NCBI GenBank assembly: GCA_016178585.1
Contig: JACOTA010000027.1
Location: 1-43,350 of the forward strand
Length of the DNA: 43,350 nucleotides
Reading direction: 5' to 3'
Origin: Nitrospirota bacterium
GTDB taxonomy: Bacteria > Nitrospirota > Nitrospiria > JACQBW01
Made by a program: the position numbers and the translations under genes. Within the stretch, counting starts at the first letter, position 1, and each line of letters starts with the position of its first letter. The notes below the pieces were generated by a model. It made no database searches. It was not told the origin of the DNA and saw only the letters and a list, made by a program, of their open reading frames with translations. Below are positions 6,120-43,012 of the stretch, piece by piece.

Positions 6120-6149
6120 TTGACATGAGCCGACAGCCTCCCGTATGAT
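6120..6149 (+). promoter_or_regulatory. Sigma70-like promoter of the cobalamin operon
   Basis: A perfect -35 box TTGACA (6120-6125) and a -10 box TATGAT (6144-6149) are separated by 18 bases. Transcription would start near 6156, a few bases before the first conserved part of the cobalamin riboswitch, exactly where a promoter is expected. The call is by sequence match and position. Confidence 0.72.
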
Positions 6150-6161
6150 TCATTCTTCATA

Positions 6162-6410
6162 GCTTCAGGTATCCTTAAGGATATAATAGAGAACCCGGTG
6201 TAATTCCGGGACGGTCCCGCCGCTGTAATTAGGGACGAAACCCGTCACCATGTCACTTTCTGGTTTTTCAGGGGGGAAGACGACGGGGAGTAGGTGGGTT
6301 TGAGCATCAGGCTTTGCCTGTGCGAGAGCCGGGGTTTGGGGGTATTGCGAATGAGTGAGCAGGCTCCCAAATCTTATCGAACTAAGAGTCAGAAGACCTG
6401 CCTGAAGAGA
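6162..6410 (+). promoter_or_regulatory. Cobalamin (B12) riboswitch with inserted repeat
   Basis: The region has the landmarks of the adenosylcobalamin riboswitch in order: an AGGT helix start near 6167, ACCCGGTGTAATTCCGGGAC, the B12 box CCCGCCGCTGTAATTAGGG (6217-6234), a TGTCACTTTCTGG/CAGGGGG stem, GACGGGGAGTAGG, and the closing AGTCAGAAGACCTGCCTGA (6387-6405). It lies between a strong promoter and an intrinsic terminator in front of cobalamin genes, so repression of the operon by B12 is expected. A family A palindrome (about 6303-6367) is inserted between the AGTAGG part and the closing segment, which makes the element longer than usual. Confidence 0.9.
6303..6367 (+). repeat. Family A palindrome, copy A1 (inside riboswitch)
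   Basis: This segment matches the other family A copies: CATCAGGCTTTGCCTGTG, then GCCGGGGTTTGGGGG, then a degenerate second stem ending in GGCTCCC. The first hairpin is CAGGC-TTT-GCCTG. It is more diverged in its second half than the other four copies. It occupies a peripheral region of the riboswitch where such elements are usually short. Confidence 0.75.
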
Positions 6411-6479
6411 AAACAGATCGCCCCGGGGTAAACAGGGTCAAGGCTGTTTTGAAACTTGAGGCTGAAGAAATCAGGGTGC

Positions 6480-6685: not shown

Positions 6686-7750
6686 ATGTATAGCGGTCAT
6701 GGGGGAAACCTGTCGGAAGTTCAGGAAAAATACGGCTGGTGTTCCGAAGAGGTTATTGATTTCAGCACCAATGTGAATCCGCTTGGAATCCCTCCCTCGG
6801 CGTTGAAGGCCTTTGAAAACTCTTTTAAGGAGGTCGGCGCCTATCCTGATTCTCAAAGCCGGACTCTTCTGCGAAAGGCATCGGCTCATTATGCGTTGTC
6901 TTCGACGGAAATTCTTGCCGGCAACGGGACTACCGAATTTATTTTCCTGATTCCCCGCGTTTTTCCGGTCAGCTCCGTTTTAATTTTCTCTCCCACTTAT
7001 TCCGATTATGAAACGTCGGCGAAATTAGCGGGTTGTCAGGTTCATTTCGGAGGTTCAAACCTCCGGCCATCGATTCACGATTTCCACTCGATTTTATTAG
7101 AACACCGGGGAAAGGTGAAATTAGTTTTTCTTTGTAATCCCAATAATCCAACCGGGGTCTGTTTTTCAGCGGAGCAGGTCCGGTGGCTGATTCAACGGCA
7201 TCCTTCGTTTTTATTCGTTGTGGACGAAGCCTATATCGATTTTGTGAACGCCCCGGCCGCCTCTCTTTTAAATTTTCCACTTGAAAAAAATGTCATCGTT
7301 CTTAAATCTTTAACCAAAATATTTAATATTCCGGGTCTGCGGCTTGGTTTTGCTTTTGCCAGTGAGGCGTTAATTCAAAAATTGGAGCATTTCAAAGAGC
7401 CCTGGACGGTCAATACACCTGCCCAAAAGGTCGGAGAAGCCCTTCTGGACGAGAAATCGTTCCTCGATGAAACCCGGATTTTCGTCGAAAAGTCGAAAGC
7501 GGGTTTATTTCATCTCTTAAATCAGTTTAAAGAGCTGGAGCCTTTTACTTCCGAGGCCAACTATTTTTTAATTCGTTTGGTCGGGGAACTGAAAGCCGAA
7601 GCGTTAAAAAGGGATCTTTTAAAGGAAAAAATTTTAATTCGAAGCTGTCATCAATGGAGGGGCCTGGGACCTGATTTTTTTAGAATTGCGGTCAAAAAAG
7701 AGGAAGACCACCACCGGCTTTTCGCTGTTTTGAGGCAGAAAATAAAATGA
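6686..7750 (+). CDS. cobD: L-threonine-O-3-phosphate decarboxylase
   Basis: A 354-residue fold-type I PLP enzyme that decarboxylates threonine phosphate to (R)-1-amino-2-propanol phosphate, the linker of cobalamin. Motifs seen: N-terminal HGGNL and DFSTNVNPLG (residues about 5-36), NPNNPTG (about 151-157), D-E-A-Y-I-D-F, and the PLP lysine K211 in LKSLTKIF, followed by GLRLGF with the phosphate-binding Arg. Length and motifs fit CobD rather than histidinol-phosphate aminotransferase, and the downstream threonine kinase and cobU support this. It is the first gene after the B12 riboswitch. The ribosome-binding site is weak. Confidence 0.92.
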   Translation: MYSGHGGNLSEVQEKYGWCSEEVIDFSTNVNPLGIPPSALKAFENSFKEVGAYPDSQSRTLLRKASAHYALSSTEILAGNGTTEFIFLIPRVFPVSSVLIFSPTYSDYETSAKLAGCQVHFGGSNLRPSIHDFHSILLEHRGKVKLVFLCNPNNPTGVCFSAEQVRWLIQRHPSFLFVVDEAYIDFVNAPAASLLNFPLEKNVIVLKSLTKIFNIPGLRLGFAFASEALIQKLEHFKEPWTVNTPAQKVGEALLDEKSFLDETRIFVEKSKAGLFHLLNQFKELEPFTSEANYFLIRLVGELKAEALKRDLLKEKILIRSCHQWRGLGPDFFRIAVKKEEDHHRLFAVLRQKIK

Positions 7751-8739
7751 AAACCCTCCTGCGCGTGCCCGGGAGCTGTGGAGAGCTGGCCCAGGGAAGC
7801 ATTGATGGAGTCCGTCTCCATATTACCTGTCCCGTTAACCGTTATACCTGGGGAGGGATCGGAACATTTCAGGGTGTTCAATATCCGGTTGGGGAGAAAG
7901 TAAAGCGGCTGCTTCACCTGGTTGGCGGCTTTGGAAAAAAAAGTGGAAAGCGGGAAGGTTCCATGCCGCGATCCGGGAGATTGCCGTTTACCCTGTTTTC
8001 GGAATTGCCTGTGGGAAAAGGGATGGCCAGCAGTACGGCGGATATGACAGCCGCGCTTGCTCTGCATCAATGGGCGGCAGGATATTCTTTAGAAAGAGAA
8101 AAGTGGGTAAAGCTGTTCTTGTCTGTTGAACCCACTGACGGGATTATGTTTGAAGGAATTACCCTGTTCGATCATTATCAGGGGAGTCTCCGGCGTTCCT
8201 TTGGCTCACCTCCGCCGATGGAAATCGTTGCCCTGGAATTTGAAGAAAAAATCGATACGATTTCTTTTAATCAGAAGGACCAGAAAAAAATTGCCCGGGC
8301 GCAGGCCAGAACCGTTTTAAAATCGTTTCAACTGATTGAGGAGGGGGTCAAGGAAGGGTCGACTCGGAAAATTGGAGAAGGTGCGACGTTAAGCGCTTTG
8401 TCCCATCAAAATATTCTTCGGAAACCCGACCTTGAGAGAATTTTAAAGTTGACCCTGGAGGCAGGGGGCGTCGGTGTCAACATTGCTCACAGCGGCTCCA
8501 TGATTGGAATGTTGTTTAATCCCGGGACGTTTGATTTTCAATTGTTGGAACTGAAAATAAAGACCCTTTTGGGACGCTCTCTCCCGATGCATTGTCTTCG
8601 GCTTCGGGGAGGAGGCATTGAGTTTCTGGATAAAAGTCAAGCGGTTCCAGTATCAAGTGATCATCAGGCTTTGCCTGTGAGAACACGGGGTTTGGGGGCA
8701 TCGGAGAAGCTGCCGCATCGTACGGGCCCCCAAGTATAA
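7747..8739 (+). CDS. pduX: GHMP-family L-threonine kinase (PduX-like)
   Basis: A 330-residue GHMP kinase. The N-terminus RVPGSCGELAQG is typical of PduX, and the ATP loop LPVGKGMASSTADMTAAL lies near residues 88-105. It should make L-threonine-3-phosphate, the substrate of the upstream CobD. The start overlaps the cobD stop by 4 bases. The last 25-29 residues (from about 302: HQALPVRTRGLGASEKLPH and onward) are encoded by a family A repeat, so the native C-terminus has been replaced or extended. The GHMP fold itself appears complete. Confidence 0.88.
   Translation: MKTLLRVPGSCGELAQGSIDGVRLHITCPVNRYTWGGIGTFQGVQYPVGEKVKRLLHLVGGFGKKSGKREGSMPRSGRLPFTLFSELPVGKGMASSTADMTAALALHQWAAGYSLEREKWVKLFLSVEPTDGIMFEGITLFDHYQGSLRRSFGSPPPMEIVALEFEEKIDTISFNQKDQKKIARAQARTVLKSFQLIEEGVKEGSTRKIGEGATLSALSHQNILRKPDLERILKLTLEAGGVGVNIAHSGSMIGMLFNPGTFDFQLLELKIKTLLGRSLPMHCLRLRGGGIEFLDKSQAVPVSSDHQALPVRTRGLGASEKLPHRTGPQV
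8652..8736 (+). repeat. Family A palindrome, copy A2 (3' end of pduX)
   Basis: The copy runs from ATCAAGTGATCATCAGGC to GGGCCCCCAAGT. Its first hairpin is CAGGC-TTT-GCCTG, its middle is ACGGGGTTTGGGGGCATCGG, and its second part ends CGTACGGGCCCC. The whole element is read in frame by pduX up to the stop at 8737-8739. The cobU ATG follows 3 bases later, so the repeat also occupies the place of the cobU ribosome-binding site. Confidence 0.88.
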
Positions 8740-8742
8740 AGT

Positions 8743-9264
8743 ATGGACGGATCAAAAACTTTGGTTTTAGGGGGGACGCGCTCTGGAAAGAGCCGTTTTG
8801 CCTTTGAACAGGGTGAAAAATTTCCTGGTAAAAAAGTTTTTGTGGCGACCTGTCAGCCCTTTGATTCAGAAATGAAAGGTCGGATCGCCTTGCACCAGCA
8901 AAGCCGCAATGCGTCCTGGAAAACAGTGGAAGAGTTTTTCAATCTGGCTGACCGGATAAAAGAAATAAGCGAGCCTTACAAGGTCATTTTGGTTGATTGT
9001 CTAACCCTGTGGCTTTCTAACTGGGTTTTAAAAGAGGACCAGGATACGAAAGTCAGGGAGGAAATTTTCAGGTTATTAGAGGCGGTTCAACAGACCGTCA
9101 CCCCGATTATTCTGGTAACGAATGAGATCGGGATGGGGATTGTCCCTCCGACGCCTTTAGGAAGGCGTTTTAGAGATTTGCAGGGAGAGTTAAATCAAGC
9201 GGCGGCCAGGATGGTCGATGAGGTATATCTGGTGACCGCGGGGATCCCTTTGAAAATCAAGTGA
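8743..9264 (+). CDS. cobU: Adenosylcobinamide kinase / phosphate guanylyltransferase
   Basis: A 173-residue CobU. It phosphorylates adenosylcobinamide and transfers GMP to give adenosylcobinamide-GDP. The P-loop GGTRSGKS is at residues 10-17, followed by ALHQQSR with the family's GMP-accepting His region, VDCLTLWLSNW (about 85-95), and NEIGMGIVPPTPLGRRFRD near the end. The length is normal. No good Shine-Dalgarno is visible because the family A repeat lies directly upstream, so translation may depend on coupling to pduX. The stop TGA is contributed by the first bases of the next family A copy. Confidence 0.95.
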   Translation: MDGSKTLVLGGTRSGKSRFAFEQGEKFPGKKVFVATCQPFDSEMKGRIALHQQSRNASWKTVEEFFNLADRIKEISEPYKVILVDCLTLWLSNWVLKEDQDTKVREEIFRLLEAVQQTVTPIILVTNEIGMGIVPPTPLGRRFRDLQGELNQAAARMVDEVYLVTAGIPLKIK

Positions 9265-9344
9265 AGCATCTGGCTCTGCCAGTGCGCAACGCGGGGTTCG
9301 GGGGCATCGGAGAACGCGAAGCATCGCACGGGCCCCTGAATAAA
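9258..9344 (+). repeat. Family A palindrome, copy A3 (cobU-cobT)
   Basis: A full copy from ATCAAGTGAAGC to CCCCTGAATA. The first hairpin is CTGGC-TCT-GCCAG, followed by GCGGGGTTCGGGGGCATCGG and a second part ending GCATCGCACGGGCCCC. Bases of the repeat supply the stop of cobU. The element is open in one frame and adds a false 32-codon N-terminal extension to the cobT reading frame. Confidence 0.9.
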
Positions 9345-11197: not shown

Positions 11198-11315
11198 CCA
11201 GCCCTTGTATATTCCAACCTGCTCCGGCTCCGAAGTTTACCGCCTATTTTTACGGATCTTAAGGAAGGGTGACCAAACTTCGAAGAGGTCGCTGTCTGGA
11301 ACATACAAAGGCTGG
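11198..11315 (+). repeat. Family B palindrome, copy B1 (cobS-cbiP)
   Basis: The copy-specific arms are CCAGCCCTTGTATATTCCA on the left and TGGAACATACAAAGGCTGG on the right, which are complementary with few mismatches. They enclose the family core, which begins CTGCTCCGGCTCCGAAGTTT and ends AAACTTCGAAGAGGTCGCTG. In the core CGAAGTTT pairs with AAACTTCG. The orientation is defined as forward. No gene is visible in the remaining intergenic bases. Confidence 0.85.
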
Positions 11316-11362
11316 TACACGGGATGTTCTAAAAGAGATGGTGAAGAAAGAATAATTTTAAA

Positions 11363-17785: not shown

Positions 17786-17912
17786 GGCACCACCGATGAC
17801 CCTTCCTCTCTGCTCATGCTCCGAAGTTTATCCTCATCTCTGGATTTTTACATTTTGGTGGGATAAACAAAACTTCGAAGAGGTCGCTGAGAGGAAGGGT
17901 CACCGGCGTGCC
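17786..17912 (+). repeat. Family B palindrome, copy B2 (after cbiD)
   Basis: The arms are GGCACCACCGATGACCCTTC / CTCTC on the left and GAGAG / GAAGGGTCACCGGCGTGCC on the right. They are complementary over more than 20 bases and unrelated to the arms of the other copies. The core is CTGCTCATGCTCCGAAGTTT to AAACTTCGAAGAGGTCGCTG, with a diverged centre. Forward orientation. B3 follows 65 bases later in the opposite orientation. Confidence 0.85.
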
Positions 17913-17977: not shown

Positions 17978-18100
17978 GCATATGCCGGTATGTGTCCCGA
18001 ACAGCGACCTCTTCGAAGTTTGGTTACCTTTCCACAAGTCTGTTAAAATAGGCGGTAAACTTCGGAGCGTGAGCAGAGAGGGATTCATGCCGGCATATGC
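17978..18100 (-). repeat. Family B palindrome, copy B3 (before cbiET)
   Basis: The arms are GCATATGCCGGTATGTGTCC on the left and GGATTCATGCCGGCATATGC on the right, again complementary and locus-specific. The core is in reverse orientation: CAGCGACCTCTTCGAAGTTT to AAACTTCGGAGCGTGAGCAG. B2 and B3 together occupy most of the 382-base cbiD-cbiET gap. I see nothing else in that gap. Confidence 0.85.
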
Positions 18101-21484: not shown

Positions 21485-21622
21485 CCCAAGAACAGCGATA
21501 GACTTCGCACCCACTTATTAATCATGTCATTGCGAGCACCGAAGGGTGCGTGGCAATCTTATCGTAAAGTCTTGAGATTGCTTCACTTTGTTCGCAATGA
21601 CAGCTTTCTAACTCTGTTCTTG
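21485..21622 (+). repeat. Family C MITE-like element, copy C1
   Basis: This 138-bp element appears identical, as a reverse complement, to 39799-39936. Its ends are inverted repeats (CAAGAACAG and CTGTTCTTG, 9 bp), and it contains an internal inverted pair GTCATTGCGAG / CGCAATGAC. No open frame of use is inside. The CATTGCGAG / GCAATCT motifs are of a kind seen in dispersed repeats of several bacterial phyla. It ends 10 bases before the ribosome-binding site of the next gene. Confidence 0.88.
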
Positions 21623-24509: not shown

Positions 24510-27500
24510 ATGGCTCAAAAGCGTAAAATAGTCCATATTACCTTCTTAATTGGCCTATTGACGATTTCAGTTATTTTTACAATATCCAAACTATTTTCTG
24601 CCACTCCTTCATTAACCATCGTTTCCGTCGGTAACGAACCCCGTGGAGGGGCCTATAACCCCTCGACCGGCAAAGGAGTGGAGTCAAACCACAACAGCAA
24701 TACCATAACCATTATCAACGCGACCAACTTTACCGTAACCAATGTCACGGTCGGTTCTCATCCCTACGGCGTCGCTATCAATAACAGCACAAACAAAGCC
24801 TATATCGCCAACGAACAATCCGATACGGTCAGTGTCATTACCCTCTCCAATAATACGGTATCAGCAACAATTTCTGTTGGAAACAACCCGAGAGGGATTG
24901 CTGTCAACGCGACTACCGATGTGGGAGTCGTTGCCAACTCCAAAGCGGATACGATCTCTATCTTAAATCTTGCCAATAATAGTGTCACGGCGACCGTCGC
25001 TGTAGGAACCGATCCGGAAGGGGTGGTGATTAATCCCTCGAATAATAGCGCTTATGTTACCAATTACGGCTCCAATACGGTATCGGTCATCAATCTGGTC
25101 AATAATACCGTATCCGCTACGATTCCAGTCGGAACCGGACCATTAGGGATTGATATCAATACCACGATTTCACGAATTATGGTCGCCAACCACTTTTCCA
25201 ACACCGTGAGCGTGATAAATCCGTCTACAAACGCCGTTTCAGCCACAATCAATGTCGGTCTGGCTCCATTTGGAGTAGCTATTAACTCCAGCACCGGCCT
25301 GGCCTATGTATCCAATGAATATTCCGACTCGGTCTCGGTAATTAATATGTCAACTAATGCGATCACCGCGACTTATGCGGCAGGACAAAATCCAGAAGGA
25401 ATCGCGGTCGTCCCTAGCCTTAGCCTTCTCTTTGTCGTCAACGACAAGGGAAATCAGGTTTATATCATCAATCTGGCCAATCCTCCAACAACTTCTCCCT
25501 CTCCTACTGGAACCGATCCCGAAGGAGTGGTCGTCGATCCGTCAACCAACACGGCAATCACCACGAATTCCAAATCGAATAATCTTTCGGTCATTAACCT
25601 GACAACCTCGACCCTGATCACAACGATACCGGTAGGCAAAGGTCCTCAGGATGTCGCGTTGAACCCAAACACCAACAAATTAGTAACAGCCAACTCCAGA
25701 GATAATACCGCGACGATTATCGACTATCCGACCCGAACGGTCTTGGCAACCGTCTCTGTTGGCAACAGACCCAAATCGGTAGCCATCGATCCGGGATTAA
25801 ACCTCGCCGCGGTTGCCAATGAACTGGATGGCACCTTAAGCCTGATTAATCTGGGGAGCTATTCGGTGACGGCCACCATTTCCACGGGATCTCATCCTAC
25901 GGATATCGCGATCAATCCGACCACCCATATCGCCGTGGTGGCAAACAAAAAAACCGACCTGGTCACGATCATCAACCTTCAAACGCAAACAACGGTAACA
26001 ACCCTAGCGGTAGGAAAAGATCCGGTCTCGGTATCGATCAACCCGAATACCAATAGTGCCGTGGTTGCCAATCAGAAATCTAACAGCGTCTCGATCATCA
26101 ACTTAAACACCAACACCGTCACAACGACGATTTCGGGAATTGTAAACCCGATCGGATCAGACATTAACCCATCGACCAATATCGCGGTAATCATTAGCCA
26201 TGAAGCGACGACCCTGACTTTAATTGATCTCTCAACCAACACGAAAAGCTCAACCTTAAGCGGCGCCGGACCCGATCCGGAAGATGTCGCGATCAACCCG
26301 AATACCAATATCGCGGTCGTCACCAATGAAACCGGCCTGGGCGTCAGCCTGATTCAACTCCCTAATTCGGTCCCGGTCTTAACCACCCTCTCTCCCAATT
26401 CCACGACGGCAGGAGGGCCGGGTTTCACGCTCACCTTAAACGGGAGCAAGTTCGTTACCACATCGACTCTGACCTTTAGTAACTTAACAATCACCCCCCA
26501 GTTTATCAGCACCACCCAGCTGTCAGCCACGATTCCAGCGTCGGCGCTTACCACAGCCGGATCGGCAACGGTCAAGGTAACCAACCCGGCGCCGGGCGGG
26601 GGAACGTCCAACAGTTTAATCTTTACAATCATTCAGGCTTTGCCGTCGATCGGTTCGATCACCCCCAGTTCAGCGACTGCCGGGAGCTCAAGCTTCCAAA
26701 TGATTATAACCGGAAGCAATTTCGCAACGACTTCCACAATCAATTTCAGCGGAACGACTCTAACAGCGGTATTTGTCTCCACCAGTCAATTAAACGTCAC
26801 CATTCCGGCTTCTTCCATAGTTGCCGCCGGAATTTATCCGGTTAAAGTGGTCAACCCCGGAGGATTGAATTCCAACAGCGTAAATTTTACGGTGAATAAT
26901 CCAGGTCCAACGATTACGGGATTTACACCGACCAGTGGAACGGTGGGAACAGTCGTCACCATTACCGGATCAAATTTTGCCACGGTTGTATCCAATGACA
27001 AAGTCTATTTTAATGGAACCCCGGCAATTATTACTTCGGGTAATGCGACTCAAATCACCACCTCGGTTCCTCTGGGAACCACCACTGGCCCGATCTTTCT
27101 AACAACACCGTTGGGGAGTACAACATCCGCAACATCGTTTACGATACAACCGCGAAAAGATTACCAAATGATCGTCAATCCTGGTTCAGCCAGCAGTGTC
27201 CAGGGAACAAGCGTCTCCTATATTGTAAGTCTGCAAAGCATCGGTGCCGAAGCATTTTCAGAACCGGTAGGGTTATCTATCTCTAATCTGCCGGCAGGGA
27301 TGACAGCCGTCTTTTCTCCAACGTCTATTTCAATCAGTCAGCCGTCTGTGCTGACCTTAACGTCATCGGCCAGTATCCCGGCGGGCACCTTGACGCTCCT
27401 TGTGCAAGGAACCGCTATCGTGGACGGAAATATCCTGAGCCACACCGCTTCGCTGAGTCTGACCACCCTTGCGTCAGGAGGCACTTCTTTGTCTGGACAG

Positions 27501-30500
27501 ATTCTAGCCACCCGGGACGGCAGGCCGCTAGGAAACGTCAGACTGCGCCTTGGAACCTCGACTTACTATACAGACCCAGCCGGAAACTTCCTGATTCAAA
27601 ATCCTCCGATCGGCACTCAGGTGATGTTGATTGATGGGGATACGGCTAACACCGCGACCTCTGCTTATCCTTCAGCGCTGCCGGTTGAATTTACCGTGAC
27701 TTCAGGCCAGGCCAACACCTTACCGTATCCAATCTACCTTCATGAAATCAGCCAAAACTTTATTCCGATTAATCCGGCAGTCGATACCATTGTTACGGAC
27801 GTAAATGTGCCTGATTTTCAAATGAGGATCCCGGCGGGGGTCAATATCATTGGCTGGGATGGACAGGTCAACACGAAAGTCTCAGTGACCCCCGTGCCGA
27901 TTGACCGGTTACCGATTAAACTGATCCCTGCCGGTATTTACACCCGAACGGTCTATATGTTCTCGTTTGGAAAGCCGGGAGGCGGTCTACCCAGCCAACC
28001 GATTCCCGTGACCTATCCCAACGATTTGCACGGAAACCCCGGAGACCGGATGAATCTCTGGTACTATGACGAATCGGCCAACCCCGATCCCAATTCCCAT
28101 CAATGGAAAATTTACGGACAGGGCACTGTGACACCCGATGGAAGGCAGATTGTTCCCGATCCTGGCGTCGGCATGCCCAAATTCTGCTGTGGCGCAACGT
28201 TTGTTTCTACCTTAGGCAGCGCCTCCAACGTCGGCCCTAATCCCAGTCCACAGGATGGAAAACAACCCAAGGGGGATCCGGTTGATCCATCCACCGGAAA
28301 TTTTACGTTAACTCATACGGATCTTTCGCTTCTAGGTCCGATTCCAATTCTCGCCACCCGGATTCAGCGGAGCCTTGGCGGCCTCTATTATTATGGGACG
28401 TTTGGAATTAACTCGAGCTTCTCGTATGATCTCTTTATGGTGGTTCAGAGTCAGTCTCTTTTGTTGACGTATCCTGATGGAGAGCAATATCGCTTTGCCT
28501 TACAGACCGATGGGACTTATATCAATGGGAATTATCCCTTCTTACGAGGTGCAGTAGCGAGAATTAACTCAGATGGCACCCGATCCGTCCGGTTTAAAGA
28601 TGGAACAACCTATACGTTTGGCGGCTCATACGGCCATCTCATTGAAATACAGGAAAGAAATCATAACGTGGTCAGCATTCATTTAAATACCTACGGATAC
28701 GCAGATCAGATCACAGATAACCTGGGCCACTATCTTCTCATTCAGTATAATACTGGGATCTCATGTTTTTGCATTGATTTAAACGGCAATCCTGTGAACT
28801 TTATTTCGTCGATTGCTGATCATAGCGGCAGGGTTGTCAACTATACATACGCTGCCAACCGCTTAACTACCGTCACAGATCCCAATGGAGGAACGACACA
28901 ATTTACTTACGATAGCGGTTCACGAATTTCCACCATAACCGACGCAAGAGGGATTACCTATCTCACCAATGTGTATGATGGGAATGACCGGGTCATTCGC
29001 CAGACCCAGGCCGATGGAGGGATTTTTCAGTTTTCTTATGATCTTACCGGAAGCGTAGTGGTTCAAACCCACGTCACCGATCCGGATGGAAACACATCGG
29101 TTTATCGGTTTAACAACATGCAGTATGTTTCGCAAAGTACAGATCCTCTAGGACAATCCACGCAAATAAACCGTGCGTTTGGGACCAATCTTCTGTCGTC
29201 CACAACAGATCCATTAGGAAGTGTCACAAGCTATACTTATGATTCAAACGGGAATATCGGGTCCTTGACCGATGCCCTGGGCAATGTGACGCAATACAGT
29301 TACGAACCGGTCTTTAATAAGCCGACTCAAATCACGGATGCTCTTGGTCAAGTTCGGACAATGGGGTATGATTCGAATGGAAATATGACCTCTGTAACCG
29401 ATTCGATGGGGAATACCACCACAATGACCTATAATTCCTTCGGCAAGCTGTTGACTGTGACGGATGCGTTAGGCCAGGTGACGACCTATGGCTACGACGC
29501 AGATCTTAATCTCACGTCCATTACGGATCCTCTAGGAAACAAGACTCAGCGGTTCTATGACCCCCTCTCCCGGCTGACGACTATCATTGATCCCAGAGGA
29601 ATGGGCACAGGGTTTGCGTATGATCCTTTAAACCGAGTTACCCAGATCATTGATTCAGCGGCTGGCAAGACCCAGTTTACCTACGATCCGAACGGGAATC
29701 TTTTAACGGTAACCGATGCCAAGAACCAGACGACCACGTACACCTATGATAATATGGATCGGTTGGCTACCCGAACGGATCCACTGCTGAGGTCAGAGAG
29801 TTATCTTTACGATGGAAATGGGAACTTGACGAAATTTACCGATCGAAAAGGGCAGATAACCACCTTTGGTTATGACAGCCGGAACCGGCGAAATCAATCG
29901 TCTTATGCGGATGGGTCCGTTACTAATTTTTCGTATGATTCCGTGGGAAACATTCAATCCATCACCGATACCGTGTCAAACACCCTTACTTTTGGTTACG
30001 ACACACTAAACCGGTTAATTCAGGAAACAACGTCAATGGGAGGATCGATTTCTTATTTTTACGATGTTTTAGGAAGAAGAATGTCGATGACCGTCGATGG
30101 GCAGTCACCTGTAGGATATAGCTACGATTCGAATAGCCGACTAGTTTCGGTCGCGCAAGGAACTCAAACGGTGTCGATGGCTTATGATGTGCTTGGCCGA
30201 AGAACGGGTCTTGCGTATCCTAACGGAACAAATACCACTTACAATTATGATCCAGCCAGCCGGTTAACTAATATTTTGCATCAAGCAGGGGCCACGACAA
30301 TAGAAAACTTAACATATAATTATGATCCAGCCGGGAATCGCGTCTCATTTGGGAGAAATGGCACACAGGCCCCTTTACCTGCGCCAGTTCAGGCAGCTTA
30401 CGATGCGGCCAACGAGCAGATTCAGTTCAACTCTGGCACAGCTAATCTTTCTTATGATTCAAATGGAAATTTGATTTCCCAATCCGATGCCAATGGAACC

Positions 30501-31421
30501 ACTAACTACACTTGGGATTCCAGGAACCGGCTCATTGGCGTTAATGGGCCAAGTGCCTCCGCAAGCTTTGTTTATGATGCATTAGGAAGAAGAATCAGTA
30601 AAATAATAAATGGAGTCCGTAAGGATTACCAATATGACGGAAATGACATTATCGCAGAAGTCGGTGGCGGCGCGGTGAGTGCAAATTATTTAAGATCGTT
30701 GAAAGTTGATGAACCGTTTATCAGGCAGTCATCGGGCAATGAGTTTTATCATGCCGATGCGTTGGGAAGTATCATGGCGTTAACGGATGCCTCGGGAGTA
30801 ATTTCTACATCTTACGCTTACGAGCCGTTTGGGAAAACAACCCCTACTGGGGCCTCATCAAACCCCTTTCAATTTACCGGCAGAGAAAATGACGGCACCG
30901 GACTTTACTACTACCGTGCTCGTTATTACAGCCCCTCACTCCAAAGATTCATCTCCGAAGATCCGATAGGATTCAGAGGCGGAATTAATAAATATTCTTA
31001 CGTTCTGAATAACCCTCTGAGATTTTACGATCCTTTCGGATTAGATAAAAAGCCTCCGGTCTATGTTCAAGTCTGTGATTTATCCGGTTGTGGCCCTCCA
31101 TTGCCGGTACAAGATCCAAATCTAATCCAATTGCCCACGAATAACCCTAACGAATTAACATTTGGCGCCAGCGTGTGTACGGGTCCAATTTGTACCGATC
31201 AAACAGGCCAAGCTTATAGTGTAGAAAATGGAGAACAGTTCGGAGCATCTTTAGATATACGCTATGGTCCCCCTGCGGAAGGACCATTAACTGAGCAAGG
31301 TTTTCCTGTGAGAGATGAGATCTTGTTGGGAGGTGGTTATGACAGTGGAGGAGGTATTAATCTCCATATTGGTCCGGGACTTGGAACTCCATTTCCTAGG
31401 ACAGTGCCAATTACACATTAA
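24510..31421 (+). CDS. Giant RHS/YD-repeat protein with YVTN propeller region
   Basis: A 2303-residue exported protein. Order: signal or anchor (residues 8-32); about 14 YVTN-type blade repeats of about 42 residues (35-615; e.g. GVAINNSTNKAYIANEQSDT), enough for two seven-bladed propellers; three IPT/TIG domains (about 618-705, 710-798, 800-885); an Ig-like domain (887-990); a carboxypeptidase-regulatory-like domain (990-1060); a linker ending CCGATF; a DUF6531-type start (GDPVDPSTGNFTLTHTDL, about 1255); many YD repeats (about 1390-2100); and the RHS core GLYYYRARYYSPSLQRFISE to NPLRFYDPFGL (about 2126-2180). The last 124 residues are a variable C-terminal tip that I do not recognise. RHS proteins often deliver such tips as toxins; that role is inferred here. 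Confidence 0.88.
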   Translation: MAQKRKIVHITFLIGLLTISVIFTISKLFSATPSLTIVSVGNEPRGGAYNPSTGKGVESNHNSNTITIINATNFTVTNVTVGSHPYGVAINNSTNKAYIANEQSDTVSVITLSNNTVSATISVGNNPRGIAVNATTDVGVVANSKADTISILNLANNSVTATVAVGTDPEGVVINPSNNSAYVTNYGSNTVSVINLVNNTVSATIPVGTGPLGIDINTTISRIMVANHFSNTVSVINPSTNAVSATINVGLAPFGVAINSSTGLAYVSNEYSDSVSVINMSTNAITATYAAGQNPEGIAVVPSLSLLFVVNDKGNQVYIINLANPPTTSPSPTGTDPEGVVVDPSTNTAITTNSKSNNLSVINLTTSTLITTIPVGKGPQDVALNPNTNKLVTANSRDNTATIIDYPTRTVLATVSVGNRPKSVAIDPGLNLAAVANELDGTLSLINLGSYSVTATISTGSHPTDIAINPTTHIAVVANKKTDLVTIINLQTQTTVTTLAVGKDPVSVSINPNTNSAVVANQKSNSVSIINLNTNTVTTTISGIVNPIGSDINPSTNIAVIISHEATTLTLIDLSTNTKSSTLSGAGPDPEDVAINPNTNIAVVTNETGLGVSLIQLPNSVPVLTTLSPNSTTAGGPGFTLTLNGSKFVTTSTLTFSNLTITPQFISTTQLSATIPASALTTAGSATVKVTNPAPGGGTSNSLIFTIIQALPSIGSITPSSATAGSSSFQMIITGSNFATTSTINFSGTTLTAVFVSTSQLNVTIPASSIVAAGIYPVKVVNPGGLNSNSVNFTVNNPGPTITGFTPTSGTVGTVVTITGSNFATVVSNDKVYFNGTPAIITSGNATQITTSVPLGTTTGPIFLTTPLGSTTSATSFTIQPRKDYQMIVNPGSASSVQGTSVSYIVSLQSIGAEAFSEPVGLSISNLPAGMTAVFSPTSISISQPSVLTLTSSASIPAGTLTLLVQGTAIVDGNILSHTASLSLTTLASGGTSLSGQILATRDGRPLGNVRLRLGTSTYYTDPAGNFLIQNPPIGTQVMLIDGDTANTATSAYPSALPVEFTVTSGQANTLPYPIYLHEISQNFIPINPAVDTIVTDVNVPDFQMRIPAGVNIIGWDGQVNTKVSVTPVPIDRLPIKLIPAGIYTRTVYMFSFGKPGGGLPSQPIPVTYPNDLHGNPGDRMNLWYYDESANPDPNSHQWKIYGQGTVTPDGRQIVPDPGVGMPKFCCGATFVSTLGSASNVGPNPSPQDGKQPKGDPVDPSTGNFTLTHTDLSLLGPIPILATRIQRSLGGLYYYGTFGINSSFSYDLFMVVQSQSLLLTYPDGEQYRFALQTDGTYINGNYPFLRGAVARINSDGTRSVRFKDGTTYTFGGSYGHLIEIQERNHNVVSIHLNTYGYADQITDNLGHYLLIQYNTGISCFCIDLNGNPVNFISSIADHSGRVVNYTYAANRLTTVTDPNGGTTQFTYDSGSRISTITDARGITYLTNVYDGNDRVIRQTQADGGIFQFSYDLTGSVVVQTHVTDPDGNTSVYRFNNMQYVSQSTDPLGQSTQINRAFGTNLLSSTTDPLGSVTSYTYDSNGNIGSLTDALGNVTQYSYEPVFNKPTQITDALGQVRTMGYDSNGNMTSVTDSMGNTTTMTYNSFGKLLTVTDALGQVTTYGYDADLNLTSITDPLGNKTQRFYDPLSRLTTIIDPRGMGTGFAYDPLNRVTQIIDSAAGKTQFTYDPNGNLLTVTDAKNQTTTYTYDNMDRLATRTDPLLRSESYLYDGNGNLTKFTDRKGQITTFGYDSRNRRNQSSYADGSVTNFSYDSVGNIQSITDTVSNTLTFGYDTLNRLIQETTSMGGSISYFYDVLGRRMSMTVDGQSPVGYSYDSNSRLVSVAQGTQTVSMAYDVLGRRTGLAYPNGTNTTYNYDPASRLTNILHQAGATTIENLTYNYDPAGNRVSFGRNGTQAPLPAPVQAAYDAANEQIQFNSGTANLSYDSNGNLISQSDANGTTNYTWDSRNRLIGVNGPSASASFVYDALGRRISKIINGVRKDYQYDGNDIIAEVGGGAVSANYLRSLKVDEPFIRQSSGNEFYHADALGSIMALTDASGVISTSYAYEPFGKTTPTGASSNPFQFTGRENDGTGLYYYRARYYSPSLQRFISEDPIGFRGGINKYSYVLNNPLRFYDPFGLDKKPPVYVQVCDLSGCGPPLPVQDPNLIQLPTNNPNELTFGASVCTGPICTDQTGQAYSVENGEQFGASLDIRYGPPAEGPLTEQGFPVRDEILLGGGYDSGGGINLHIGPGLGTPFPRTVPITH

Positions 31422-32147: not shown

Positions 32148-32739
32148 GACAGGAAGTACGGCGGCGAGTGGAAAAGCCACTACGATTTCTTATACTTATC
32201 AATATACCGGAAGAGAACAGGATGGCACTGGGCTGTACTATAACAGAGCCCGATATTATGGTCCGTTGGAGTCAAGGTTTTTGAGTGAAGACCCGATTCT
32301 AGCACCTTTTACACCCCTTTCAGTGGGTATGTGTAGAAAAACAAATTTTACGATTTGGACCCTAACCAGAGGTGTTTCAGGAATTAATGTTCAAATGGCT
32401 CAAATGTTAAATCAATATGTTTACACGAAGAATAATCCTGTAAAGTTTAGCGATTCGAGCGGTATGATTTCCGATTCACGGCCTTGTGGAGCACAAATTG
32501 ATAAGTGTGTTGATGAAACCAGAAATACTCCGGCAGGACAATGTACAGGTACTCAATATAGACTTTACTGGGGTGGTGAAAGTGGGGTTTCTCATTGCAA
32601 ACAGGGAATATTTACTGAGAAGTGTCTTATTTTGGATTTGAACGAAGCTATAGCAAATTGTAGGGAATATGGTCCTCTTCCTGATTCCTGCACGAAAGGA
32701 ATGTTGGACTGTATATATACTGATCCGAAAATTCGATAA
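32146..32739 (+). pseudogene. Orphan RHS C-terminal cassette (no start)
   Basis: Directly after the membrane gene an open frame runs 197 codons without a proper start. Its first part is a diverged RHS core end: TGSTAASGKATTISYTYQYT, GREQDGTGLYYNRARYYGPL, ESRFLSEDPI, then YVYTKNNPVKFSDSSG, interrupted by about 40 unrelated residues. The remaining 91 residues form a Cys-rich tip (eight Cys, e.g. CGAQIDKC, CKQGIFTEKC) unlike the tip of the large protein. This is the layout of displaced C-terminal cassettes in RHS loci, which can recombine onto the main gene. A TTG at 32266 could allow some expression. Confidence 0.72.
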
Positions 32740-34023: not shown

Positions 34024-34190
34024 GAAAATGACGGCACCGGGCTTTGTCTATGATCCTTATAAACCGGGTAACACAAATTATCGATGCGGCAGCGGGGACG
34101 ACCCAGTTTACCTATGATCCCAACAGAAATCTTTTGTTGGTAACTGATGCCAAAAATCAAACCACGATATATACCTATGACAAGAGGAAG
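34020..34190 (+). pseudogene. Chimeric RHS fragment
   Basis: The bases TGAGAAAATGACGGCACCGG match the RHS core end of the large gene (near 30884). They are fused directly to a stretch matching its YD repeats near 29612-29750 (GTATGATCCTTTAAACC-like, then CCCAGTTTACCTA, then GATGCCAAAAATCAAACCAC). The order is reversed relative to the intact gene, so at least one deletion or recombination event made it. Reading frames of the two parts differ and no start is present. It marks past RHS cassette exchange at this site. Confidence 0.75.
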
Positions 34191-35797: not shown

Positions 35798-35905
35798 AGG
35801 CATGTAACCTTCTCTGCTTCGGCTCCGAAGTTTACCACCTATTTTTACGGACATTAAGGAAGGGTGACCAAACTTCGAAGAAGTCGCTGTGAAGGTCACA
35901 TGCCT
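35798..35905 (+). repeat. Family B palindrome, copy B4 (cbiH-cbiF)
   Basis: The arms AGGCATGTAACCTT and AAGGTCACATGCCT are complementary with one mismatch and are specific to this locus. The core TCTGCTTCGGCTCCGAAGTT to AAACTTCGAAGAAGTCGCTG is nearly identical to that of B1, including the centre CCTATTTTTACGGA. Forward orientation. Confidence 0.88.
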
Positions 35906-36722: not shown

Positions 36723-36770
36723 AAAGTTTCCAAGTTATGTTCAGTCTTCTTTAGTTGAGAATACCGTTGA

Positions 36771-36888
36771 CATGGCAGAGTGTGACCTGAACAGCGACCT
36801 CTTCGAAGTTTGTTTACCCTACCTTAATGTCTTACAAAATAGATGGTAAACTTCGGAGCGCGAGCAGAGAAGGTCACACTCTGCCATG
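36771..36888 (-). repeat. Family B palindrome, copy B5 (cbiF-cobC)
   Basis: The arms are a perfect 18-bp inverted repeat, CATGGCAGAGTGTGACCT and AGGTCACACTCTGCCATG. The core is in reverse orientation: CAGCGACCTCTTCGAAGTTT to AAACTTCGGAGCGCGAGCAG. This is the clearest example of locus-specific but self-complementary arms. No gene lies in the 200-base gap. Confidence 0.9.
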
Positions 36889-36925: not shown

Positions 36926-37516
36926 ATGGTGGTAATGACAGATTTGTATTTAATACGGCATGGCGAAGTGGCTTATGGAGGGGGGACCGCTTTTTATGGT
37001 CACACCGATATTGGTTTGTCGAAAGTCGGACATGCACAGGGGGACAATGTCCTGCTCCAGTTTAAAGCGGTAAACCTTGAAGCGGTTTATTCAAGCGATT
37101 TAAAGAGAGCTGTGGAAGGAGGGCGGCGGTTGGCCGATCAATCTTCGGTTCCTCTTCAGATCGATTTGAATTTAAGAGAAAGGAACTGGGGGAGATGGGA
37201 AGGTCTTACCGCGGAGGAAATTGTGACTCGATTTCCCGAAGAATGGAAGGCCTGGTGCGATGCGCCTCTTTTTTTTACGCCGCCCGATGCCGAACCGGTT
37301 GAGCTTTTTTACCGAAGGGTTACCCGAAAAATAGCTCATTTAATAAAAGCTCATTCCGGTCAGGCCGTCGCGGTGGTCTGTCACGGAGGAGTCATCCGGG
37401 CGGTTTATGCCTGGATTTCCCAAAAATGGCCTGAGGGGTTTTTCGACCTCCATCCAGGCTACGGCTCGATCCATCATCTGATTCTGGAATACGAGCAGTT
37501 ACCTGAATATGAATAA
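36926..37516 (+). CDS. cobC: Alpha-ribazole phosphatase
   Basis: A histidine phosphatase of 193-196 residues that removes the phosphate from alpha-ribazole-5'-phosphate or adenosylcobalamin phosphate. The catalytic LYLIRHGE motif is at the N-terminus, YSSDLKRAVEGGRRLAD carries the second Arg, RNWGRWEGLTAEEI is typical of CobC, and VVCHGGVIRAV carries the second His. The start is uncertain (TTG 36923, ATG 36926 or ATG 36935); the last gives MTDLYLIRHG, common in the family. It overlaps cbiA by 8 bases. Context makes the cobalamin role likely over other phosphoglycerate-mutase-like functions. Confidence 0.88.
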   Translation: MVVMTDLYLIRHGEVAYGGGTAFYGHTDIGLSKVGHAQGDNVLLQFKAVNLEAVYSSDLKRAVEGGRRLADQSSVPLQIDLNLRERNWGRWEGLTAEEIVTRFPEEWKAWCDAPLFFTPPDAEPVELFYRRVTRKIAHLIKAHSGQAVAVVCHGGVIRAVYAWISQKWPEGFFDLHPGYGSIHHLILEYEQLPEYE

Positions 37517-39023
37517 CATGGAAAATTCTAAAATACAGCGGAGAAAAGGCGTTTTAATTGCTGGAACCCACAGCGGGGCAGGAAAAACCACCGTGACGTT
37601 AGCCATTTTGGAAGCGTTAACCCGAAGGGGCTTTTCCATTCAAGCTTTTAAGGCAGGTCCCGATTATCTTGACCCGACCTTTCATGAAATTGCGACCGGG
37701 AGGCCTTCCAGAAACCTCGACGGATGGATGATGGGGAGAGAGAACGTTCTGAGGAGCTTTAGACAGAACACGCAGGATGTGGACTTTTCCGTTATTGAAG
37801 GAGTCATGGGGCTTTATGACGGACTCAGGGGGAGGTCGGAGGAGGGAAGTTCGGCTCAAATTGCCCAATGGCTTTCCGTTCCCGTGATTTTAGTTTTGGA
37901 CGCGAAAGGGCTCGCCAGGACAGCCGCTTCCGTTGTTTCGGGGTGTCAGAAATTCGACCCCGGAATCCAAATTCAAGGGGTCATTTTTAACCGGATTGGG
38001 AGCAAAAACCACCTGGAAATTTTGAAGGAATCAGTGGAGTCCTATTGCAAAGTAAAAGTCCTGGGAGGGATTCCCTTAGACGCCTCAATGACCATTCCTG
38101 AACGTCACCTTGGTCTTGTTCAGGCGAAAGAAAGTCTGTCGGAAATGATGCGGAAGAGGCTCGCCGAGATGGCTGAGGCCAATCTTCAACTAGACGAACT
38201 TCTCAAAATGGAATGCTTGAACCATGATGAGGAGGAACCTGCCTCCTTTAAGCCGGCCAGGGAGAGGTTTGTTTGCAAAATCGGCATTGCAAAAGATGAA
38301 GCATTTCATTTTTATTACCAGGATAATTTTGACTTATTGGAGCAGGCGGGAGCCCAACTTGTTTTCTTCTCCCCGCTTCGCGATAAACAAATTCCTGATG
38401 TTGATGGGCTTTATTTTGGCGGAGGGTATCCGGAGGTTCATGCGGAAGTTTTGGCTGAGAACCTGCCAATGTTGCAGTCGATCCGGTGGTTTGCGGAAGA
38501 AGGGGGGCCGGTTTATGGGGAATGTGGCGGGCTGATGTACCTTTCGAAAGGGATTGAAACGGCGGAAGGAAAGTTTTTCCCGATGGCGGGTCTCCTTCCC
38601 GGACAGATTAAAATGGGCAAAAAGTTAAAAGCCCTTGGTTACCGCCAAATGATAAGCCTGAAAGATAATCTCCTTTTTCGCGCCGGAGAAAAAGCCAGAG
38701 GGCATGAATATCATTATTCCGAATGGCTGGAGGCTTTCCCGGATAAAGACCTGGTGGCCTGGCAGGCTGCTTATCAAGTGAAGCTACCGGCTTTGCCGGT
38801 GCGTAACGCGGGGCTCGGGGGCATCGGAGGACGCGAAGCGCCGCACGGGCCCCTGAATATAAATAAGTCCCGGGGGGGGGAGAATGAAAATTTCAAAGAA
38901 GAAGGTTTTTTCAGCGGTTCTGTTTTGGCCAGTTATGTTCACCTTCATTTTGCCTCTAATCCCTCGGCGGCATGCCGGTGGGTTTCAGCCTGTGAAGCTT
39001 ATAGCAAAAGGATGAAACGATGA
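37509..39023 (+). CDS. cbiA: Cobyrinate a,c-diamide synthase with in-frame repeat
   Basis: A 504-residue CbiA/CobB that amidates the a and c side chains with glutamine and ATP. The N-terminal P-loop GTHSGAGKTT is at residues about 19-28, and FKAGPDYLDPTFH (about 48-60) follows. The amidotransferase half has FGGGYPEVHAE, the nucleophile C339 in YGECGGLMYL, GHEYHYSEW, and SVLASYVHLHFASNP near the end. Between the last two motifs a family A repeat is read in frame and adds about 29 residues (LPALPVRNAGLGGIGGREAP and on). The flanking motifs stay in frame, so the enzyme is probably functional. Confidence 0.93.
   Translation: MNNMENSKIQRRKGVLIAGTHSGAGKTTVTLAILEALTRRGFSIQAFKAGPDYLDPTFHEIATGRPSRNLDGWMMGRENVLRSFRQNTQDVDFSVIEGVMGLYDGLRGRSEEGSSAQIAQWLSVPVILVLDAKGLARTAASVVSGCQKFDPGIQIQGVIFNRIGSKNHLEILKESVESYCKVKVLGGIPLDASMTIPERHLGLVQAKESLSEMMRKRLAEMAEANLQLDELLKMECLNHDEEEPASFKPARERFVCKIGIAKDEAFHFYYQDNFDLLEQAGAQLVFFSPLRDKQIPDVDGLYFGGGYPEVHAEVLAENLPMLQSIRWFAEEGGPVYGECGGLMYLSKGIETAEGKFFPMAGLLPGQIKMGKKLKALGYRQMISLKDNLLFRAGEKARGHEYHYSEWLEAFPDKDLVAWQAAYQVKLPALPVRNAGLGGIGGREAPHGPLNINKSRGGENENFKEEGFFSGSVLASYVHLHFASNPSAACRWVSACEAYSKRMKR
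38775..38862 (+). repeat. Family A palindrome, copy A4 (inside cbiA)
   Basis: A full copy from ATCAAGTGAAGC to CCCCTGAATATA. The first hairpin is CCGGC-TTT-GCCGG, differing from A3/A5 and A1/A2 by paired changes. Next come GCGGGGCTCGGGGGCATCGG and a second part GCGAAGCGCCGCACGGGCCC. It is wholly inside cbiA, in frame and free of stops, at a loop between conserved motifs. Confidence 0.92.
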
Positions 39024-39798: not shown

Positions 39799-39936
39799 CA
39801 AGAACAGAGTTAGAAAGCTGTCATTGCGAACAAAGTGAAGCAATCTCAAGACTTTACGATAAGATTGCCACGCACCCTTCGGTGCTCGCAATGACATGAT
39901 TAATAAGTGGGTGCGAAGTCTATCGCTGTTCTTGGG
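39799..39936 (-). repeat. Family C MITE-like element, copy C2
   Basis: Reverse complement of 21485-21622 with no difference that I can find over 138 bases. It has the same 9-bp terminal inverted repeats (CAAGAACAG / CTGTTCTTG). It lies between the TPR gene and the promoter of the transhydrogenase genes. C1 and C2 are inverted relative to each other and bracket 18.2 kb. Confidence 0.88.
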
Positions 39937-41543: not shown

Positions 41544-42926
41544 ATGGTTAACCATTTAATTGACATTGTCTATCTGATTTCATCTGTTTTAGTGATCATA
41601 GGAATAAAAAGACTCAATTCTCCGGATACCGCCCGTAGCGGGAATCTTTTTTCGACCCTGGCCATTTTTCTGGCCGTGGTGGTCACCCTTCTGAATAAGG
41701 AAATTGTCCAGTTTCATACGATTTTAATCGGGGCGGCGATTGGCGGCACCATTGGCGTGATTTTTGCCAGAATGGTTAAAATGACCGAAATGCCAGAGAT
41801 GATCGCCATGTTAAACGGTTTTGGAAGCATCTCTTCAGCCTTAATCGGCATCACAGAGTTTTACCGGACGTTCCCCAATTCCGACGGATTTTCAGTGACC
41901 GCCATTATCCTTTCGGCCATCGTGGGAGCCAGTACTTTCTCCGGGAGCATTATCGCCTTTGCAAAACTCCGTGAGGTGATGACCGGAAAAGCCATTTTGT
42001 ACAGGTTTCAGCATCCTCTCAACCTTCTCATGTTCCTGGCCATTGTTGGTTTTTCGATTTATCTTCCATTTCAACCGGACAGCAATTCTTCTTTTATTAT
42101 GATCAATGTCCTGGCTCTTGTTTTGGGCATTACCCTGGTGCTTCCCATCGGGGGAGCCGATATGCCGGTGGTCATTGCTCTTCACAATTCCTATTCCGGA
42201 GTCGCCGTATTGGTGACCGGATTTTTGTTTAATAATAATGTCCTGATTATTATTGGATCGCTGGTGGGGTCCTCCGGTATGATCCTGACCTATGTGATGT
42301 GCAAGGGGATGAACCGATCGGTCATTAATGTCATGTTCGGGGCCGTCGCGACTGAGAATAAAAGCGCGTCCAGTAACGGAAAACCCGCAAGAAGAAGCGT
42401 GGTTAAAGAGTATTCGATTGAAGACGCCATTACAGTGCTCCAAAATTGCCGTTCTCTTATCGTTGTCCCGGGTTACGGTCTTGCGGCCGCTCAGGCTCAG
42501 CATGCGGTGAGGGAGCTCGTGGACCTGTTAGAAGAGAGAGGCGTTTCTGTCAAATACGCCATCCATCCGGTGGCGGGTCGCATGCCGGGCCATATGAACG
42601 TCCTTCTGGCTGAAGCGAATGTGCCTTATCCGCAGTTATATGATATGGACGATATTAATGATGAGTTTGCGAAAACAGATGTGGCTCTTGTCATCGGAGC
42701 CAACGATGTGGTCAATCCGGCCGCAAAAAATACTCCGGAAAGTCCAATTTACGGCATGCCAATTCTGGATGTTGAAAGTACAAAGGCGGTTATTGTGCTC
42801 AAAAGAAGCATGAACCCCGGGTTTGCCGGAATAGAAAATGAGCTGTTTGAACGGCCAAATACCATGATGGTTTTTGGTGATGCCCGAAAAACAGTAAATG
42901 AATTTATTAAAGGGATAAAAGAGTAA
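41544..42926 (+). CDS. pntB: NAD(P) transhydrogenase subunit beta
   Basis: A 460-residue protein. The N-terminal half has about eight or nine membrane helices, with GADMPVVIALHNSYSGVAV (residues about 207-225) at the channel. The C-terminal NADP(H)-binding domain III starts near residue 290 with VVPGYGLAAAQAQHAVREL (about 307-325) and contains HPVAGRMPGHMNVLLAEA and IGANDVVNPAA. It couples proton entry to reduction of NADP by NADH. It is followed by a family A palindrome. Confidence 0.95.
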   Translation: MVNHLIDIVYLISSVLVIIGIKRLNSPDTARSGNLFSTLAIFLAVVVTLLNKEIVQFHTILIGAAIGGTIGVIFARMVKMTEMPEMIAMLNGFGSISSALIGITEFYRTFPNSDGFSVTAIILSAIVGASTFSGSIIAFAKLREVMTGKAILYRFQHPLNLLMFLAIVGFSIYLPFQPDSNSSFIMINVLALVLGITLVLPIGGADMPVVIALHNSYSGVAVLVTGFLFNNNVLIIIGSLVGSSGMILTYVMCKGMNRSVINVMFGAVATENKSASSNGKPARRSVVKEYSIEDAITVLQNCRSLIVVPGYGLAAAQAQHAVRELVDLLEERGVSVKYAIHPVAGRMPGHMNVLLAEANVPYPQLYDMDDINDEFAKTDVALVIGANDVVNPAAKNTPESPIYGMPILDVESTKAVIVLKRSMNPGFAGIENELFERPNTMMVFGDARKTVNEFIKGIKE

Positions 42927-43012
42927 GTGAAGCAACTGGCTTTGCCAGTGCGAAACGCGGGGTTCGGGGGCATCGGAGAATGCGAAGCATCGCACGGGCC
43001 CCTGAATATGAT
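42927..43012 (+). repeat. Family A palindrome, copy A5 (pntB-rplI)
   Basis: The copy runs from GTGAAGCAACTGGC to CCCCTGAATATGATAA. The first hairpin is ACTGGC-TTT-GCCAGT, then GCGGGGTTCGGGGGCATCGG, then a second hairpin ATGCGAAGCATCGCA and CGGGCCCC. It begins at the base after the pntB stop and ends about 20 bases before the rplI start. It is the best-preserved copy. Confidence 0.92.

Follow-up and report, generated by a model that had tools for sequence, protein, structure and literature searches.

Family A insertion in the cbiA gene

The cbiA gene of this Nitrospirota bacterium contains an in-frame copy of a previously undescribed repeat (family A), which is probably a structured, non-autonomous mobile repeat maintained for the most part in operon spacers on the sense strand, the cbiA copy being a rare in-frame survivor. 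The window analyzed in this study is a stretch of 43,350 nt, and cbiA occupies positions 37509 to 39023 of its plus strand; the ORF encodes an insertion-bearing cobyrinate a,c-diamide synthase (PF01656 and PF07685), which matches the NF002204 CobB equivalog over residues 13 to 481 (518 bits). A sequence-only reading of the window had located a palindromic repeat at 38775 to 38862 and proposed that it adds about 29 codons in frame. Both points were borne out: covariance model R1 places the element at 38774 to 38861 on the plus strand (89.1 bits), its 132 genome copies exclude a chance resemblance, and the net gain is 29 codons, as determined from the empty-site codons of the two nearest CbiA homologues (61 to 64% identity). 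The codons at this site in the window are TAT CAA, a segment of 30 codons (GTG AAG ... AAT AAG), and TCC CGG GGG GGG GAG, and those of the empty site in locus L067 are TAT CAT CTC TTC CGC GGT GGA GAG. The alignment with relatives that the same reading had proposed shows the insert in none of approximately 70 other CbiA homologues.

The CbiA structure predicted by AlphaFold2 from an alignment of 43 natural sequences has a confident fold (mean pLDDT = 86.4, pTM = 0.86). Residues 430 to 459, which largely correspond to the insert, lie between the strands of residues 422 to 425 and 462 to 465 and have pLDDT values below 50. Given this low pLDDT on an otherwise confident fold, the structural mapping suggested in the sequence-only reading puts the insert in a predicted disordered loop.

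Copies and distribution of family A

The covariance model for family A, trained on 22 own-genome copies, detected 132 copies (E ≤ 0.01) in this 2.45-Mb Nitrospirota MAG, in which an initial DNA search had given 53 matches. The unit is approximately 82 to 96 nt long, tandem arrays are present, and the copy number is uneven among genera (132, 64, and 15). Among 30 sampled relatives, the model matches families f1, f3, f4, f5, f7, and f9, which belong to the same class; f6 has single borderline matches in two genomes, and f2 and f8 are without family A. A phylum-wide draw of 246 genomes gave matches in six only, five of which are of this class. One copy is carried by a Candidatus Manganitrophus plasmid (L068), upstream of a gene identified by eye as cobalt-precorrin methyltransferase-like. 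A phage or plasmid origin was considered for the family and rejected, as collections of phage, plasmid, and viral sequences gave no match. No Rfam 15 covariance model matches any family A copy at the gathering score, the only match being to the host riboswitch (RF00174), and at E ≤ 1 Rfam gave nothing for family A and a single chance match elsewhere in the locus.

Within the window, a diverged copy at 6295 to 6375 (plus strand, 42.7 bits with the covariance model) interrupts the cobalamin riboswitch aptamer of the same operon (6150 to 6419, plus strand) between RF00174 consensus positions 151 and 152; even with the copy inside, the aptamer reaches 90.5 bits. A σ70-like promoter is seen by the riboswitch at 6120 to 6149. 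The covariance model also places plus-strand copies at 8653 to 8738, forming the C-terminal end of a kinase-like ORF (7747 to 8739) 4 nt ahead of the next gene; at 9257 to 9344, in the cobU/cobT spacer according to the ORF list, where AAGTGA gives the upstream ORF (8743 to 9264) its last codon and stop; and at 42923 to 43010, at the stop codon of the ORF at 41544 to 42926 and 22 nt ahead of the next ORF. The earlier statement that the peptide frame of the cbiA copy is open in other window copies held much as made, with two reservations: one nucleotide is deleted in the copy at 8653, and the true start codon of cobT probably lies downstream of the copy at 9257.

A second palindrome, family B (CAGCGACCTCTTCGAAGTTT core), has 15 genome copies by DNA search, located in operon spacers; its window copies are at 11219 to 11338, 17793 to 17906, 17982 to 18091, 35799 to 35905, and 36748 to 36888. 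The window also contains a perfect inverted repeat of 138 nt, whose arms are separated by 18 kb (21485 to 21622 and 39799 to 39936), and a long YD-repeat (RHS-like) ORF with YVTN-like β-propeller repeats ahead of it and, after it, incomplete repeats of its 3' region (24510 to 31421, 32266 to 32739, and 34060 to 34183).

In-frame copies in other proteins

Family A is also inserted in frame in RsmD (PF03602) and in a YkgJ-like CxxCxxCC protein (PF03692), each with a net gain of 27 codons over the empty sites of sister-genus homologues. Matches spanning the site lack the insert in 14 relatives for RsmD and in 3 relatives for YkgJ. The VRNAGFGGIG-type peptide of CbiA, for which the sequence-only reading had proposed a search of other proteins, was found in the YkgJ-like protein, at the C terminus of a formate-dehydrogenase-like (FDH-like) protein, and in a Methyltransf_28 protein of a sister genus (L221), where family A has the same peptide frame as in CbiA and is likely an in-frame insertion. 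With this recurrence and the lack of the insert in other CbiA homologues, neither of the outcomes that the reading had named as refuting its proposal was observed. The inserts of CbiA, YkgJ, and Methyltransf_28 have a common ALPVRNAGFGGIG-type frame, and RsmD carries family A in a different one. An antisense copy in the FDH-like gene (C67:40875, 35.8 bits) is doubtful.

The proposed design of the element for tolerance in coding sequence was not supported, and one of several observations against it is the different frame in RsmD. The openness of the peptide frame is not above that of dinucleotide shuffles, either over the full length (24/95 versus 34 expected) or in the core (57/95 versus 58 expected). 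The 5' end of family A (ATAAGTGA) closes two of the three sense frames with stop codons within 8 nt, and the consensus ends contain TAA and TGA. Approximately 3 to 4% of the copies are inside genes, i.e., 5 of the 132 within ORFs, a count outside which the YkgJ-like copy falls as it was scored as partial; the intragenic search demands an intact ORF, and gene-breaking insertions would thus be missed.

Genomic position and strand bias

Genes around all 132 copies were called with a hexamer model made for the purpose, under which frame-breaking insertions would be scored as intergenic. In these stretches, which are 82% coding, 111 copies are intergenic, 16 are partial (overlapping a gene end), and 5 are inside ORFs. 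Between co-directional genes, 96 copies are in the sense and 8 in the antisense orientation (p = 1.4e-20), and where both gaps are shorter than 60 nt the ratio is 52:0. The bias recurs in sister genera (23:1) and in other families, f5/f9 (19:2), and it is reversed in genome G005 (1:11, sense:antisense), where the copies form part of longer composite repeats. At loci L279 to L298 of G005, near-identical family A copies lie inside these composite repeats, some at contig ends and mostly antisense to the flanking genes. For family B, which served as an internal control in similar spacers with the same gene caller, the ratio is 7:5 (Fisher p = 0.004 versus family A).

Family A is located approximately 15 to 25 nt ahead of start codons. 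In the own genome, sense copies are found 4 to 12 nt upstream of tRNA-Ser, tRNA-Trp, and tRNA-Pro, and antisense copies have the family A 3' end 1 to 5 nt from the 3' end of tRNA-Lys, tRNA-Ala, and tRNA-Val. In relatives (L220, L225, L227, L266, and L273), family A ends 2 to 5 nt ahead of tRNA-Pro, tRNA-Ser, and tmRNA genes, and overall the gap to a following tRNA or tmRNA gene is 2 to 13 nt. Relatives also have copies in ribosomal-protein operons (rpsJ, rplC, rpsM, and rpsK, identified by inspecting the encoded starts). Approximately 8 junctions, including those of tRNA-Pro, tRNA-Ser, and rpsM/rpsK, are occupied by family A in at least two genera, in some cases by another subtype; this comparison took element-bearing segments only and therefore yields no turnover rate.

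The TATAAT-like 3' end was considered as a promoter and rejected, as the start site would land inside tRNAs or past the ribosome-binding site and the motif is not kept in relatives. An intrinsic terminator was likewise rejected, as no window copy had one called on its sense or antisense strand. After the hairpin, the antisense strand is richer in T (4.75 versus 2.77 T per 10 nt), and avoidance of weak antisense termination could thus add to the strand bias. The sense bias may arise because the RNA is useful, because antisense copies are harmful and avoided, or because insertion is coupled to transcription.

RNA structure of the sense strand

The sense strand of family A has a conserved RNA structure of two adjacent stem-loops, A and B, for which compensatory changes exceed those of the controls. 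In the cbiA copy, predicted stem-loop A (GUGAAGC..ACCGGC-UUU-GCCGGU..GC..AC) extends over 38778 to 38807 and predicted stem-loop B (UCGGGGGC...GGCCCCUGA, with an apical C-GAA-G hairpin) over 38814 to 38857, both on the plus strand, with positions counted on the sequence. The corresponding family patterns are GYG..GC-A-CCGGC-UUU-GCCGG.. for stem-loop A and UUCGGGGGC...GGCCCCUGAA around a variable apical hairpin for stem-loop B; the apical hairpin is of several sequence types, most of which have a GAA loop.

Among the 22 copies of the own genome, 96.7% of the cells are paired, and 40 double-changed cells are observed, with double changes in 10 of the 30 pairs. In the copies of relatives, double changes occur in 22 of the 30 pairs (306 double-changed cells) and the covariation score is 0.336, compared with 0.103 for shuffles and at most 0.054 for slid versions, with none of 500 shuffles reaching the score; since this alignment was fitted to the covariance model, its covariation figures lean towards the model. 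For alignments A2 and A4, none of 500 shuffles reaches the covariation score, and slid structures give 0.03 to 0.07 versus 0.225 and 0.336, respectively. One pair is U.G in 73 of 77 cells in relatives, and another is G.U in all 22 own-genome copies. Conserved G.U pairs become A.C mismatches on the opposite strand, which suggests that the sense strand is the folded one.

Comparison with known repeat systems

The sequence-only reading had drawn a parallel with the Rickettsia palindromic elements (RPEs), which are 105 to 146 bp long with terminal inverted repeats and have nearly half of 44 copies in ORFs (PMC2229807, PMC10969869); RPE copies are also found inside structured RNA, i.e., tmRNA and M1 RNA (PMC2229807). 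Family A is likewise a small palindromic repeat between genes, in frame in unrelated conserved proteins, and in a structured RNA, the cobalamin riboswitch. The parallel stands insofar as in-frame insertion recurs (CbiA +29, RsmD +27, and YkgJ-like +27 codons) and fails for the main habit, which is intercistronic and on the sense strand, unlike that of RPEs (PMC10969869). Moreover, family A has two separate stem-loops and a strong sense orientation in operons and is almost without matches outside this class of Nitrospirota. Because it departs from RPEs in two defining properties, i.e., the intragenic share (5 of 132 copies inside ORFs plus the partial YkgJ copy, rather than about half) and the coding of a conserved peptide in an open frame, we do not file it as an RPE; the comparison is of features, not of RPE sequences.

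ERIC sequences are co-transcribed with flanking genes in Yersinia, with an orientation-dependent effect on mRNA (PMC2229807). Family A resembles ERIC/IRU and other bacterial MITEs in being an element of approximately 100 nt with a strong fold once transcribed, but it lacks a long terminal inverted repeat; its ends do not pair together, the covarying pairs being those of the two stem-loops, and no clear target-site duplication was detected. Like REP/BIME sequences, family A is high copy, extragenic, palindromic, and found in tandem clusters. RAYT genes have been described as lying, in every case, between two cognate REPs in inverted orientation (PMC2817692), whereas no Y1 gene examined here is flanked by family A, the orientation in operons is single rather than alternating, and, in place of one hairpin headed by GT(A/G)G, family A has a 5' end of ATAAGTGAAGC and two different stem-loops. 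The β-proteobacterial BRE is also approximately 90 bp long, GC-rich, and intergenic with few copies inside coding sequences and varying tandem numbers (PMC3110155); it has at most 29 copies and belongs to another lineage, and the likeness is one of description, not of sequence. The TAACTGA repeats of Beggiatoaceae, which are abundant directly upstream of start codons and also occur in ribosomal-protein operons (PMC4679880), contain TAA and TGA in the unit, as does the family A 5' end (TAAGTGA), but are simple heptamer arrays rather than a folded 90-nt unit.

Origin and maintenance of family A

We favor the explanation that family A is a high-copy non-autonomous mobile repeat, which some machinery would spread. 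Most copies would persist on the transcribed strand in the short gap that separates a stop codon from the ribosome-binding site of the following gene, where their position suggests co-transcription with the flanking genes; the folded spacer RNA would, at a minimum, do no harm and would probably be of slight benefit as an intercistronic spacer or stabilizer. The cbiA copy would be a rare survivor of coding insertion in which the frame was kept, and it is predicted to add a flexible surface loop between two glutaminase-domain strands with little effect on the enzyme. Mobility fits the empty sites in CbiA, RsmD, and YkgJ, the tandem arrays, and the copy within the riboswitch. At the flanks, a weak excess of shared words (4.92 versus 4.41 between copies) is inflated by tandem copies and gives no clear target-site duplication. 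Against the mobile-repeat explanation we count the lack of a linked transposase (no copy in the 63 kb around the Y1/RAYT genes of relatives), the lack of a clear target-site duplication, a purpose-made gene caller that would score frame-breaking insertions as intergenic, the antisense copies of G005, even though these belong to composite repeats, and the junctions occupied in several genera, which also fit a conserved function.

Such a function is central to an alternative that we regard as unlikely but worth serious consideration. Family A would then be primarily a cis-acting RNA with a role in mRNA processing or stability, antitermination, or the control of translation; each locus would be under selection for it, and its presence in cbiA would be an accident. 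The strict sense orientation in operons (52:0), covariation across families with strand-specific G.U pairs, placement before start codons and before tRNA and tmRNA genes, and copies in ribosomal-protein operons and at junctions common to several genera all argue for it; however, conserved junctions were seen for only a minority of the compared copies, one junction often holds different apical subtypes, copies lie within ORFs and a riboswitch and beside both the 5' and 3' ends of tRNAs in either orientation, copy number swings between genera, and Rfam has no match. The repeat could also be both mobile and functional, i.e., a sense-only intercistronic RNA-level or transcription-coupled repeat of one multi-family Nitrospirota clade that determines mRNA boundaries or processing within operons and ahead of tRNA/tmRNA genes, with occasional peptide capture, which we consider rather doubtful.

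An RPE-like element with a peptide adapted to protein insertion is improbable: at least three in-frame insertions with empty sites in unrelated proteins of the own genome, another likely one in a sister genus, and the frame common to CbiA, YkgJ, and Methyltransf_28 point that way, but the shuffle-like frame openness largely refutes it, and the stop codons of the consensus ends, the different RsmD frame, and the small intragenic share tell against it as well. A REP-type element moved by a RAYT (Y1) transposase would account for the high copy number, palindromes, and tandem clusters, and the own genome has four Y1_Tnp genes. This origin is nevertheless highly improbable: the 62.9 kb searched around the Y1/RAYT genes of six related genomes yielded no family A match at E ≤ 1, the own Y1_Tnp genes have only one weak match nearby (25.4 bits, E = 0.0026, L141, approximately 1.9 kb away), and the unit consists of two different stem-loops. 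Finally, loop length at the insert site does differ among CbiA homologues, yet an ordinary lineage-specific loop that arose with no insertion event is ruled out by the membership of the insert DNA in a 132-member repeat and the clean empty site in relatives.

Significance

Rickettsia offers the best-documented cases of palindromic repeats inserted in frame into conserved proteins, and reports for Wolbachia and Methanocaldococcus are cited in PMC2229807; the phenomenon now recurs in Nitrospirota. For three proteins, relatives provide the empty site, which makes the effect of such insertions directly testable. A 132-copy covarying repeat that is oriented 52:0 in tight operon spacers, compared with the unbiased family B in the same genome, provides a clean natural contrast, which bears on whether small bacterial repeats are merely tolerated or act on mRNA.
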